From a virus: a DNA stretch of 23,389 bases. The DNA lies in the IMG/VR virus record IMGVR_UViG_3300046516_000298, positions 1 to 23,389 of that record; one strand, 5' to 3'. A model generated the notes under the pieces. The model was not told where the DNA came from. It saw nothing but the letters and a program-made list of their open reading frames with translations, and searched no databases. This document shows, piece after piece, positions 2,521-9,397 of the stretch (its first letter is position 1; each line of letters opens with the position of its first letter). A program made the position numbers and the translations under genes.

Positions 2521-3018
2521 ATGCAGATAACTTTGCATAAAGCCGCCGATGAGGTCCGTGCGTTGCTGGATCTCGTCGATGAAAACACGGGCGAACTGCC
2601 GGAGGGATTCGAGCAAGCCCGCGCCATCGTTGCCACCAAGGCGACGGCGGTCGCGGCCTACTTGATCGAATCCGAGAAGCAGGTAGAGGCAGCGGACCAG
2701 TACGTGAAGGAACTATCCGCCCGGGTCAAGAGCGCCAAGAGGCGGGCCGACTGGCTACGGGGCTATTTGCAGTCGCACATGACCGCCTGCGGGATCACCG
2801 AGATAAAGGACGAGCGGGGCATCTTCAAAGCGACTCTTGCAGTCGGCAGGGACGAGGCTGTGGAGATATTCGATACGGCCCAGATCCCGCGCGACTACTT
2901 CGTGGAGATCCCGGCTCAGTTCGCTCCTGACAAGGTGATGATGCGCAAGGCCATGAAAGATGGCTTCGACATCCCCGGGGCCAAGCTGGTCAAGCGTGAC
3001 AGGCTGACGATCAAGTGA
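2521..3018 (+). CDS. Siphovirus Gp157-family protein
   Basis: Protein of 165 aa, close to the usual length of the Gp157 family (PF05565). Visible features: LLDLVDENTGELPEGF at about 16-31, a long charged coiled coil (about 45-85, ESEKQVEAADQYVKELSARV ... RADWLRGYLQSHM), then a C-terminal beta part with IPRDYFVEIP and the closing KLVKRDRLTIK. Family members were first linked to phage resistance in Streptococcus and are regularly found in phage recombination cassettes; the biochemical role is not settled. It follows the SSB-like gene by 2 bases and couples to NinB by a GTGA overlap. Confidence 0.9.
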   Translation: MQITLHKAADEVRALLDLVDENTGELPEGFEQARAIVATKATAVAAYLIESEKQVEAADQYVKELSARVKSAKRRADWLRGYLQSHMTACGITEIKDERGIFKATLAVGRDEAVEIFDTAQIPRDYFVEIPAQFAPDKVMMRKAMKDGFDIPGAKLVKRDRLTIK

Positions 3019-3389
3019 GCGCCTATTTCGACCTGGACGACGAGGGCGAGCGGAGGCATGCCCTCGCCTATCTCGCCAAGGGAATCCTCAACCCCCGCAG
3101 GAATGGGGAGCAGAACAGGCTCCTGCATGCCCTGCTGGGGGAGATCTCGCGCCAGGTCGAATGGGGCGGCAAGAAGTGGGACGTAGACGACTGGAAACGC
3201 CTGCTCACGGCCGCGTGGCTGAGAGCAAAGGGGCAGCACGTTGCGATGGTTCCTGCGGTGGATGGGCAGGGATTTGATGTGCTGTACCAGAGGACTTCTA
3301 CGCTGTCCAAGGGTGAGTTTGCCGATCTGGTGGACTACATCCACTCATGGGCAGCAGAGCAGGACATCCTTCTACCGGAGGCGGTATGA
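3015..3389 (+). CDS. ninB: NinB-type recombination protein
   Basis: Protein of 124 aa matching the NinB family (PF05772; lambda NinB/Orf is a recombination mediator that binds ssDNA and SSB and can replace RecFOR). Key blocks: QVEWGGKKWDVDDWKRLLTAAW, MVPAVDGQGFDVLYQRTSTLS and FADLVDYIHSWAAEQ. Slightly shorter than lambda NinB. Start is a GTG overlapping the Gp157 stop (GTGA). Location beside an SSB-like protein and Gp157 fits a recombination mediator that loads onto SSB-covered DNA. Confidence 0.92.
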   Translation: MSAYFDLDDEGERRHALAYLAKGILNPRRNGEQNRLLHALLGEISRQVEWGGKKWDVDDWKRLLTAAWLRAKGQHVAMVPAVDGQGFDVLYQRTSTLSKGEFADLVDYIHSWAAEQDILLPEAV

Positions 3390-3550
3390 GCAAGATCGAA
3401 CTGATGGGCAAGCAGTACGAAGCCTACCTGACTGGCTGGGACGCTGCATTGAGACGCGCTGCTATGGAGATAGGGGACCGCGATCTATCCGCCTGGGAGG
3501 CGCGCGAGATCATTCTTGGCCTGCAACGGAAACAGGAGACGGAGGAGTGA
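3386..3550 (+). CDS. Small hypothetical phage protein
   Basis: Protein of 54 aa (starts MSKIELMGKQYEAYLTGWDA), predicted helical; the YLTGWDAALRRAAMEI segment resembles short phage proteins of unknown function. ATGA overlap with ninB and GTGA overlap with the next HNH gene. The start at 3386 is chosen because of this coupling; an in-frame ATG at 3347 would overlap ninB by 43 bases. An aggag at 3534-3538 in its 3' end serves the next gene. Confidence 0.65.
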   Translation: MSKIELMGKQYEAYLTGWDAALRRAAMEIGDRDLSAWEAREIILGLQRKQETEE

Positions 3551-4287
3551 CCTGGCACGCACAACGCTTTGAGCCGATGGCGTCGCGCGTCCAATTCAAT
3601 TGCCGCGTGTGCGACCGGGCGATGTGGTTTCCTCCCTGCAAGGTCGGCAAGTACCTAACTTGTGGGCCGGAGTGCGAGACAACGCGCCGGGTGAACGAGC
3701 GCGAAATGCGACTCCGCGAATGCGTGACTTGCCGCAAGGTGTTTTATCCGCGCTGGGCACAAATTGACGCCGGGGCGGGCCTGTTTTGCTCTCAGCGATG
3801 CAACACGAAGTCGCACGTTGCCATGAACGCCCCAGAGGCGAAGGCGAAGGCGCAAGCTGGGTTTCGTATCGCGATCGCGGAGGGGCGCGCTGGGCATCGC
3901 TCGGGGCCCGACAATTGGAAATGGAAAGGTGGGGCGGAAGCGTACCGGCGGCGTTTGCTCGAATCCGGCGTCTTGGCGGAGAGGGTACGCAAGTATCGCC
4001 AGGAGAACCCGCACAAGGTCCGAGAGTTCTCGCAGCGGCGCAAGGGGCGTAAGCTAGAGAAGCTGCCGCGCGGCACGATTCCGGCATTGGGAGACGCACA
4101 GCGGTGGAAATGTGCCGTCTGTCGGACCAGCGTCCGCAAGGGCTACCACGTAGACCACATCCAGCCGCTCGCTAGGGGCGGGAAACATGAGCCGTTGAAC
4201 CTGCAATTGCTGTGCGGCTCCTGCAACGTCCGCAAGTCCGCCAAAGATCCGATCGCGTTCATGCAGTCGCGGGGGTTCTTGCTTTGA
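3547..4287 (+). CDS. HNH endonuclease with two N-terminal zinc fingers
   Basis: Protein of 246 aa. The C-terminus is a classical HNH nuclease: C189-x2-C192, HVDHI at 201-205, GG, LNLQLLC, C223-x2-C226 and an NVRKSAKDP tail; H201/D203-H204 and N218 are the likely catalytic set. Upstream lie two zinc-finger-like modules (C19-x2-C22...C39-x3-C43 and C59-x2-C62...C81-x3-C85) and an NWKWKGG element (123-129) typical of phage HNH proteins. Expected to cut or nick DNA; a homing or replication/recombination accessory role is possible. GTG start overlaps the previous stop (GTGA) with aggag 8 bases before it. Confidence 0.88.
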   Translation: MTWHAQRFEPMASRVQFNCRVCDRAMWFPPCKVGKYLTCGPECETTRRVNEREMRLRECVTCRKVFYPRWAQIDAGAGLFCSQRCNTKSHVAMNAPEAKAKAQAGFRIAIAEGRAGHRSGPDNWKWKGGAEAYRRRLLESGVLAERVRKYRQENPHKVREFSQRRKGRKLEKLPRGTIPALGDAQRWKCAVCRTSVRKGYHVDHIQPLARGGKHEPLNLQLLCGSCNVRKSAKDPIAFMQSRGFLL

Positions 4288-7633: not shown

Positions 7634-7787
7634 TCGCCAGGCCAACCAAGCAACCGTTCGCCACGGCATAGCAGAGGAAGGCCACGCCAAGAAGGCTGCT
7701 ACCGGACAGCCAGTACCCGACCGCAGCGGCGAGGTATAAACCCCCAGCCAGGCCGACGCAGATGTTGGCGAAGGTCTCAGCGGTCAT
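7614..7787 (-). CDS. Small two-helix membrane protein
   Basis: Protein of 57 aa, almost entirely hydrophobic: a first helix around ICVGLAGGLYLAAAVGYWL and a second around GVAFLCYAVANGCLVGLAI, with a short GSS turn. Start ATG overlaps the exonuclease stop (ATGA at 7785-7788), so it is translated as the last gene of the minus-strand operon. Topology resembles a small holin or a superinfection-exclusion protein, but the sequence alone does not decide. Confidence 0.65.
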   Translation of the reverse strand: MTAETFANICVGLAGGLYLAAAVGYWLSGSSLLGVAFLCYAVANGCLVGLAIKALGR

Positions 7788-8569
7788 CAGTTCGACAGCA
7801 GCGCGCGTCTTTTGCCGATGCTGTTCTTCGTGTAGCGACCTCTGGCCCAGCCGCCGCAGGACTTGCACTTGTAACGGTGGTACTCGCCCGACTGAGTGAA
7901 AGCTCTGCCCCTGCTCTCCATGTTCTTGGAGCTGCACTTCGGGCACTGGATCGCGTCGTCGTCGTTATAGGCCGCGACGTTCGGGTGGCCGACGATGTAG
8001 GGTCGTAACTTGAGATACACGTTCTCGGTGGCGATGATGTCGATGTCGTTGTACTTCTTCATCTCGGCCCACGCCTTCGGGTTGTCAGCGAGGCATTCCG
8101 TCCAGAGCTCAAAGCCCGGGAATAGCTTGTGTTCCGACTTCGGGGTATCGGTCAAGACCTCCGAGAGCCATGCGAGTTTGTTGCTCGTGAACCCGGCTAT
8201 CGAGCGGGCCGCGAGCATGGTGTCGACCACCTTGTAAGGTGTAGGAGGAGGCATCTCTGCCTGGAGGAACCGGGCGTTGATCTTCTTCATGTCGAACTTG
8301 ACGCCGTTCTGCGCGACGACGATATCCGCCTCGTCCAGCACGTTCCACAGCAGCTTGAGGAGGGCTTTGTCGTCCCGGACCTTGCTTGGCCCCCGGCCTG
8401 CGGTGTTGTGGTGATAGACCTTCTTCTCGCCTAGAACCTTGTAGGAGAAGGAGAGGATTGACCAGTCGGTATGAATCTGGTTGAGGTTGACGAACTGTTT
8501 AAAGAGCCCCCAGACGTACGCCAAGATCGGACTCGTCTCGATATCCAGCGTAATGATTCGGGCGCTCAC
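7787..8569 (-). CDS. DEDD-type 3'-5' exonuclease with C-terminal zinc ribbon
   Basis: Protein of 260 aa with an RNase H-like (PolB-type proofreading) exonuclease fold: Exo I in TLDIETSP (D9, E11), Exo II in VVAQNGVKFDMKKIN (N88, D93, with Gln where His is common), and Exo III YNDID (Y173, D177), making it DEDDy-like. The C-terminus has a zinc ribbon (C209-x2-C212, C235-x2-C238). Likely trims 3' DNA ends in replication or recombination; no polymerase domain is attached. GTG start overlaps the endonuclease VII stop (GTGA). The start is confirmed by a 16-residue block (residues 3-18) that is repeated in the neighbouring gene. Confidence 0.85.
   Translation of the reverse strand: MSARIITLDIETSPILAYVWGLFKQFVNLNQIHTDWSILSFSYKVLGEKKVYHHNTAGRGPSKVRDDKALLKLLWNVLDEADIVVAQNGVKFDMKKINARFLQAEMPPPTPYKVVDTMLAARSIAGFTSNKLAWLSEVLTDTPKSEHKLFPGFELWTECLADNPKAWAEMKKYNDIDIIATENVYLKLRPYIVGHPNVAAYNDDDAIQCPKCSSKNMESRGRAFTQSGEYHRYKCKSCGGWARGRYTKNSIGKRRALLSN
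8516..8563 (-). repeat. Exonuclease copy of a duplicated 16-codon segment
   Basis: Encodes ARIITLDIETSPILAY as residues 3-18 of the exonuclease, identical in protein to 8959-9006. The DNA differs in 12 of 16 codons, all synonymous (for example serine AGT here, TCT in the other copy). Confidence 0.95.
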
Positions 8570-9021
8570 CGCGTCTTCTCCAAGTACGCGACGGCCATCT
8601 CCGGCTTGTCTTTCAGCAGTCCGAGCGCGAGGTTGCATGCGCCACAGAGGAGCCCGCGTACGGCGCCGGTTGTATGGCAGTGGTCAACGTGGCAGACATC
8701 GCGCTTCGATGCCCCGCTGGCCGGCTTTGCCAGCGCCTGCCCGCAACACTCACAGGCCCCGTTCGCCGCAGCAAACATCGCCAGCACTTGTGCCAGAGAG
8801 ACGCCGTACTTATCACGGAATTTTTTGTCTGCGGTTTCTGCCTTGTTTGTTTTCCGCTTCGCTCGCTCTTGCGCTAGTACCTTTTCTCTGTTCGCGGCGT
8901 AATAGGCCCTCGCCTGCGCCTTCATCTTTTCTTTGTTGGCGAGGTAGTACGCTCGGTTGTAAGCGAGGATGGGAGAGGTTTCTATGTCGAGGGTGATGAT
9001 GCGGGCACCCCCGGCGATCAT
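8566..9021 (-). CDS. Endonuclease VII-like HNH nuclease fused to an exonuclease N-terminus
   Basis: Protein of 151 aa. Residues 22-151 are a recombination endonuclease VII-type His-Me finger nuclease (PF02945): basic helical YYLANKEKMKAQARAYYAAN, C90-x2-C93, HVDHCHTTGAVRGLLC (112-114 catalytic region, C126-x2-C129 with C90/C93 as zinc ligands) and NLALGLLKD. Residues 6-21 are the exonuclease start ARIITLDIETSPILAY, which is foreign to this family. T4 endo VII resolves branched DNA; free-standing relatives behave as mobile endonucleases. ATG start overlaps the upstream stop; stop overlaps the exonuclease GTG. Looks like a mobile nuclease that landed inside the exonuclease gene. Confidence 0.88.
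   Translation of the reverse strand: MIAGGARIITLDIETSPILAYNRAYYLANKEKMKAQARAYYAANREKVLAQERAKRKTNKAETADKKFRDKYGVSLAQVLAMFAAANGACECCGQALAKPASGASKRDVCHVDHCHTTGAVRGLLCGACNLALGLLKDKPEMAVAYLEKTR
8959..9006 (-). repeat. Endonuclease VII copy of the duplicated 16-codon segment
   Basis: Encodes residues 6-21 of the endonuclease VII fusion, the same 16 residues as exonuclease residues 3-18. After this segment the reading frame continues directly into the nuclease (NRAYYLANK...). Confidence 0.95.
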
Positions 9022-9293
9022 TTCCTAGCTTTCCGAGTTCGGGGAATCTTCACGGGTACACCCTCCGTTAGTTCTACGAGTTTGCGGACCATTCCAATCG
9101 GGATGCGGGAGCGCGGAGCCATGTGGTCGACACTCACGCTGCATGTCATCTCGATACATTCGGAAGTCAGGGCGAAGACGTAGCCGACCTGATGGAACAC
9201 GACAGGCTCACCGGGTTTGGCCCCGGCGCGGTCGGTCCAGGGGCCTTCATCTACGTCGCTTGCATCCTCCCAGACGCACAGCACGAGCCTCAT
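9018..9293 (-). CDS. Hypothetical phage protein
   Basis: Protein of 91 aa: RLVLCVWEDASDVDEGPWTD at the start, a middle GEPVVFHQVGYVFALTSECI and a basic tail (KIPRTRKARK). It looks like a compact beta-rich domain; no family recognised. The ATG at 9293 is chosen over an in-frame start at 9335 because it overlaps the stop of the tiny gene upstream (ATGA) and has aaggga about 8 bases before it. ATGA-coupled to endonuclease VII. Confidence 0.65.
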   Translation of the reverse strand: MRLVLCVWEDASDVDEGPWTDRAGAKPGEPVVFHQVGYVFALTSECIEMTCSVSVDHMAPRSRIPIGMVRKLVELTEGVPVKIPRTRKARK

Positions 9294-9397
9294 TCCAGAT
9301 CCCTTGCCCACCCTTCGGTGAGAAACAGATACCAAGCAACTAGCCCGATGGCGAGGGCATAGAGGAATGTGCCGGCCATCCTCACGATGAGCCTCAC
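9290..9397 (-). CDS. Tiny membrane protein
   Basis: Short ORF of 35 aa: GTG start, VRLIVRMAGTFLYALAIGLV then AWYLFLTEGWARDLE. Basic N-terminus, one hydrophobic helix, acidic tail. It fits exactly between neighbours, with GTGA overlap to the upstream stop (9394-9397) and ATGA overlap to the downstream start, which is the main support for its being real. Function unknown. Confidence 0.55.
   Translation of the reverse strand: MRLIVRMAGTFLYALAIGLVAWYLFLTEGWARDLE

Follow-up and report, generated by a model that had tools for sequence, protein, structure and literature searches.

A probable insertion of a homing-type endonuclease VII gene, with a replacement gene start, in a phage exonuclease gene

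In a single metagenomic contig (IMGVR_UViG_3300046516_000298), analysed over a stretch of 23,389 nt that is hereafter called the window, a homing-type endonuclease VII gene appears to have been inserted in the gene for an exonuclease and to have brought a replacement start for it, a reading to which we assign a probability of about 0.6. In its best formulation, presumed homing or an illegitimate insertion placed in the exonuclease gene a nuclease that supplies a divergent and probably uncuttable gene start. The interrupted gene (7787–8569, minus strand), now restarted at a GTG codon, encodes a DnaQ/RNase H-like protein that profile matches assign to phrog_403, 'DNA polymerase exonuclease subunit' (E = 2.7e-98), and that is a member of the Pfam family RNase_H_2; relatives are present in 1292 GenBank phage records. 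The window also encodes an integrase, a Gam-like gene, NinB, a head-closure protein and a DNA-ejection protein, and is therefore probably a fragment of a temperate phage. Two HNH endonuclease ORFs are found in its early region, at 3–494 and 3241–4287; the latter extends in a different frame across the end of NinB (3015–3389) and a short ORF that begins directly behind it, and its true start is uncertain.

The peptide ARIITLDIETSPILAY, which comprises the DxE catalytic motif region of the exonuclease, is encoded twice on the minus strand, with 443 bp between the two positions. Copy 1 (9006–8959) forms residues 6–21 of the endonuclease ORF, and copy 2 (8563–8516) lies at the start of the exonuclease. 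All 16 residues and 34 of the 48 bases are the same in both, while 12 of the 16 codons and 14 of the 48 bases differ; the changes are all silent, being confined to third positions, a TCT/AGT serine and a CTC/TTG leucine. The homology of the two peptides is beyond doubt. The original prediction had described the same ORFs, peptide and positions, the 12 silent codon changes and the serine switched between TCT and AGT, all of which were confirmed. It had also argued against a recent duplication, and a recent tandem duplication is indeed rejected by the saturation of the silent sites between the copies. The longest run shared by the two copies is five bases, which should leave little or no scope for homologous recombination between them, as had been proposed. 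This short run also bears on the suspicion, natural for a locus known from one metagenomic contig, that two phages were joined during assembly: no assembly k-mer could have joined the copies there, the fusion is in frame and the gene overlaps on both sides (ATGA and GTGA) are exact, which makes a chimera of two metagenome phages barely credible.

The history of the locus was read from relatives in which the endonuclease is missing. Four IMG/VR records (L053, L082, L109 and L149), three of them nearly the same sequence, encode an exonuclease 77% identical to that of the window, and in each of them a homologue of the gene at 9018–9335 abuts the exonuclease start directly, without an endonuclease between the two. 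In the window this upstream gene (minus strand, 105 aa) overlaps with its stop codon the start shared by the endonuclease and the native exonuclease (ATGA). Queried alone in IMG/VR it returned no homologue, and it was recognised later by its position beside the exonuclease (36% identity over 86 aa, E = 9e-16 for the pair). A comparison of the endonuclease protein (P0002) with the four records matched only the exonuclease start and found no endonuclease elsewhere in them. The endonuclease is thus an optional gene with an empty allele in four records, and exonucleases free of the nuclease, for which the original prediction had recommended a search, do exist in related phages.

Since the upstream gene abuts the exonuclease in these relatives, copy 1, although inside the endonuclease ORF, is the original exonuclease start in its original place (8959–9006), now serving as an endonuclease leader. 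Read against the empty site, the window contains, in this order, the upstream gene, the native start (copy 1), the insert and the rest of the exonuclease, which by its predicted reading frame now uses copy 2 (8516–8563), the silently different replacement brought with the insert. The proposal that the nuclease arrived with a second host-gene start is upheld in this respect, with the correction that the endonuclease ORF has the native copy and the exonuclease the new one. The insert itself (8516–8958, minus strand, 443 bp) comprises the endonuclease body and the replacement start; it follows exonuclease codon 21 (SPILAY/VWG), just 3' of the conserved DxE catalytic motif. It is almost wholly coding, and no self-splicing group I intron was matched in Rfam at 8300–9200 (E values up to 1) or across the window at gathering scores, so a group I intron carrying an endonuclease was rejected.

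The original exonuclease ATG (9019–9021, minus strand), found at the same position in the empty-site relatives, is now the start codon of the endonuclease fusion, with AGGA just 5' of it at 9023–9026. At the other end, the GTG start of the exonuclease overlaps the endonuclease stop (GTGA, 8566–8569), and the C-terminal YLEK of the endonuclease is encoded by TACTTGGAGAAG, which places GGAG (8578–8581, minus strand) 8 nt ahead of the GTG, where it is likely to be the Shine–Dalgarno sequence of the restarted exonuclease. The same TACTTGGAGAA precedes the exonuclease ATG in L035, and AAGGAG precedes that in L151. More generally, the 3' ends of the endonuclease genes in L035, L098, L151 and the window (8578–8581) encode GGAG or GAGAG just before the start of the next gene, which suggests that the nuclease may carry its own start signal for the gene that follows.

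The inserted ORF (8566–9021, minus strand; 151 aa) consists of exonuclease residues 1–21 fused to an endonuclease VII-like protein (PF02945, E = 1.6e-18; phrog_2914), the leader being in frame with a complete endonuclease VII catalytic domain at residues 67–148 (8578–8823), as delimited by Pfam, alignment and the match to T4 EndoVII. The domain contains C90, C93, D113, H114, H116, R122, C126, C129 and N130; C126 is present and the other eight residues are invariant with the homing endonuclease F-CphI and T4 gp49, so that the motif CxxC...DHxH...R...CxxCN, with all DHHRN residues and the zinc cysteines, is intact. This motif is C-terminal in the homing and restriction clade and N-terminal in resolvases (PMC6083498). 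Expressed as a fraction of protein length, DHxH lies at 0.74 in the window and 0.70 in F-CphI, compared with 0.25 in T4 gp49 and 0.26–0.33 in the endonucleases resident in related phages, for which the best family is phrog_423. The endonuclease therefore has, by sequence comparison, the domain order and the DHHRN residues of F-CphI and not those of resolvases. An Endonuclease VII Holliday-junction resolvase was considered and rejected, since the catalytic domain is not N-terminal and there is no full-length alignment with T4 gp49; in the match to T4 EndoVII among PDB sequences, just residues 82–139 align, with residues 15–71 of gp49. A structure search with the predicted model placed T4 EndoVII and Hpy99I at the top, both weakly (E = 0.04). 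In that model, built from an alignment of three sequences (mean pLDDT 76), residues 1–14 are disordered (pLDDT below 50) and helices begin at residue 17. In a small tree with long branches, weakly resolved in the remainder, the window endonuclease pairs with that of L035 (91/96).

A homing or homing-like event is the most likely history of this arrangement, with cutting, immunity and mobility all presumed. A homing-type endonuclease VII gene would have landed after exonuclease codon 21 and taken over the exonuclease start codon, so that the endonuclease would bear residues 1–21 of the exonuclease as an inert leader. The 3' end of the insert would supply GGAG, a GTG overlapping the endonuclease stop and replacements for the first 16 exonuclease codons, and by virtue of these the full exonuclease would still be made, by translational coupling. 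The enzyme would cleave the conserved motif of exonuclease genes that lack the insert, and the nuclease would be copied in during repair together with the divergent start; the target would be lost at copy 1 through interruption and at copy 2 through its different codons. Copy 2 would come from another lineage, and the left end would have been joined through an Ala-Tyr codon patch (GCNTAC). Indeed, the Ala-Tyr that ends copy 1 aligns with an Ala-Tyr in the L098 endonuclease, and the left join is likely to have used a GCNTAC patch common to the exonuclease and to the endonuclease's own N-terminal repeat. Illegitimate repair at microhomology has been described for phage homing (PMC2988022). The wider proposition, that a phage homing element spreads by substituting its own divergent, nuclease-immune copy for the catalytic 5' end of the exonuclease, and that silent codons protect it in place of an intron or intein, is put forward tentatively, at somewhat short of even odds.

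The main rival, which we regard as rather unlikely, is recombination without cutting, whereby an endonuclease–exonuclease piece of another phage entered by illegitimate recombination at the conserved 5' end; the old start would then be a scar and the endonuclease a passenger. The structure of the locus would follow exactly from a crossover within the exonuclease combined with a join at Ala-Tyr microhomology, and phages with an endonuclease immediately ahead of the exonuclease are numerous (L035, L151, L002 and L027). Against it, the inserted enzyme has its motif at the C-terminus, as in F-CphI, and is not of the resident phrog_423 type, and the join falls where the codons of the gene are most conserved. 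Homing enzymes usually cut at such positions.

The origin of copy 2 was assessed by comparing 146 exonuclease loci over the same 16 codons. Pairs with at least 12 shared residues have a mean shared-codon fraction of 0.39, and a quarter of them lie at or below 0.25, the value for the two copies in the window. Among 213 locus pairs with an identical 16-residue peptide, 61 share four or fewer codons, the lowest-sharing pairs being mostly of one peptide type, AKVLILDIETAPISAY. Random draws from the phage's own codon usage gave four or fewer identical codons out of 16 with P = 0.08. The silent divergence within the window is thus that of two separate exonuclease lineages, and a donor from another lineage suffices to explain it, with no special recoding. 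The original prediction had raised the idea of selection for silent changes that destroy the nuclease target; as much divergence is normal between independent lineages, and selected recoding was dropped as a needed explanation once these pair statistics were at hand.

In its full form, this idea derives copy 2 from copy 1, with codons changed under selection to let the cassette escape its own nuclease and to keep it from recombining out. It gains something from the completeness of the peptide identity, as members of the clade usually differ at one to four of the 16 positions, from the failure to find the 14-residue core IITLDIETSPILAY elsewhere in IMG/VR and from the brevity of the shared runs. 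Full identity was found in 6 of 378 clade pairs and in 61 of 2579 pairs with low codon identity, and pairs that combine it with so small a number of common codons belong to the tail of the distribution in the clade of the window. Besides the ordinary extent of the codon differences, the drift of a free leader over the time needed would have altered its amino acids: at dS = 1, about 18 amino-acid changes are expected, with P(0) of about 2e-8. We therefore hold derivation of copy 2 from copy 1 to be improbable, although the rarity of full identity in the clade and the core not found elsewhere make it conceivable that copy 2 has a closer origin.

The absence of amino-acid changes at saturated silent sites implies that the divergence predates the fusion or that the leader is selected within it. 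The former seems the better account: both copies probably served as working exonuclease starts while diverging, and we take the leader to be a scar, presumably inert in the endonuclease. A leader functional in the endonuclease, for instance in folding, regulation or targeting, and kept by selection, would account for the perfect conservation of the protein sequence, but homologous endonucleases lack it, residues 1–14 are those predicted to be disordered and the leader is simply the native exonuclease start in place; this explanation is very improbable. Copy 1 matches L109, L147 and L081 at 36–40 of 48 bases and copy 2 at 33–36 of 48. Copy 1 is slightly nearer to these clade relatives, but 16 codons cannot support a tree, and no known lineage clearly stands out as the nearest to copy 2. 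A mosaic breakpoint marking the donor tract was also considered, as the first 24 codons are nearer to L081 and L147 and later ones nearer to L109; it was set aside, given that the local sequence of L109 looks derived.

Gene ends supplied by mobile endonuclease ORFs are known from fungal mitochondria. In Glomus, mobile ORFs (mORFs) accompany duplicated gene ends at atp6, atp9, cox2 and nad3 (PMC3630166), and the atp6 copies of a fungal mORF are 63.5% identical in DNA and 91% in protein (PMC3630166); a similar mORF with a duplicated end of Allomyces macrogynus atp6 is cited in that report. The window resembles these systems in having an endonuclease ORF in a protein gene, with a divergent gene end that replaces the native one, and the features of a mobile ORF, namely an endonuclease ORF within a host protein gene and the native end together with a divergent supplied copy, are present. 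The mitochondrial mORFs, however, affect the 3' (carboxy-terminal) end and encode LAGLIDADG or GIY-YIG enzymes, whereas the window concerns the 5' end of a phage gene and an enzyme of endonuclease VII type. In Tremella mitochondria (PMC7315562), endonuclease ORFs carry foreign, silently divergent amino-terminal gene ends, and 5' parts of host genes are, as in the window, duplicated beside inserted mobile elements, for which fragment exchange was proposed there; the duplications there are less identical in protein (72.5–81% in the cases quoted) and are described as introns, while the window is without one.

Among phage systems, F-CphI, a homing endonuclease of the DHHRN family from cyanophage S-PM2 (PMC6083498), shares with the window enzyme the C-terminal endonuclease VII motif, all DHHRN residues and a free-standing position beside a conserved gene. 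It is kept off its own genome by a psbA intron (collaborative homing), whereas the protection proposed here would come from interruption and divergent codons. T4-like phages have free-standing homing endonucleases, including mobE inserted in nrdA of Aeh1 (PMC2988022), where, as in the window, an endonuclease occupies a part of a phage gene that is critical to function, with overlapping starts and stops and reliance on upstream expression. Aeh1 nrdA stays split into two proteins, a split gene being the outcome found described for phages, while in the window the missing end is resupplied and the predicted product is one protein. No phage report of a supplied gene end was found in an open-access library, which is not proof of absence. 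If confirmed, the present arrangement would mean that a nuclease without an intron or intein can sit in the catalytic part of a phage gene and leave it unbroken by means of a spare gene end, would extend to phages a mode known from fungal mitochondria, and would offer a route for the piecemeal exchange of catalytic motifs between phage lineages. It would also suggest a signature for searches, namely nuclease ORFs whose first or last codons repeat those of the adjacent gene with silent differences.

The presence of two ARIITLDIETSPILAY copies in one genome is unusual. A second copy of the exonuclease start was sought upstream of 111 exonuclease loci and found at none, the best match being 7 of 16 residues, as in shuffled controls; none of 475 matched GenBank phage records (475 places) contained one, and the fused endonuclease–exonuclease-start pattern had no other carrier in IMG/VR, near-identical records being left out of these carrier searches. 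The exact 14-residue core IITLDIETSPILAY did not recur in other IMG/VR contigs, and an external donor of an identical peptide is accordingly an assumption. A DNA search for donors of either copy in GenBank phages returned chance-level matches only, and no prophage relatives were found in GTDB genomes. No other endonuclease VII protein was found with a ARIITLDIETSPILAY-type start, and no intact exonuclease homologue with these codons; the widespread start and the shared codons that the original prediction had named as contrary evidence thus failed to appear, the start being unique among the endonuclease VII proteins found.

Nucleases do occur at the same place in other phages. In an unrelated phage contig (L035:120–700), an endonuclease VII gene 56% identical to that of the window lies exactly at the exonuclease start codon: its ATG occupies the place of the exonuclease ATG in L098, overlapping the stop of the preceding small gene, and the exonuclease restarts on an ATG that overlaps the endonuclease end. 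In L147 (record strand reversed), where the exonuclease is 74% identical, an HNH endonuclease gene directly upstream overlaps the exonuclease start, a second nuclease type at this position, and in Stenotrophomonas phages a related endonuclease is found just upstream of the exonuclease. No 16-codon second copy was found at the L035, L147 and Stenotrophomonas loci, nor in L023, where an HNH ORF (L023:2360–2900; compare L027:3225–3300) starts with the apparent opening codons of a small gene next to it (VNDET...); behind the HNH ORF this small gene begins anew as MAEETPKQEQPV. The L023 locus may be a further, weaker case of start takeover, involving a different gene. In L098 (188–796), the reading frame of an endonuclease VII ORF continues into the small gene that precedes the exonuclease (LERTKMKSANEETQKQEQPV...), and an internal ATG could restart that small gene.
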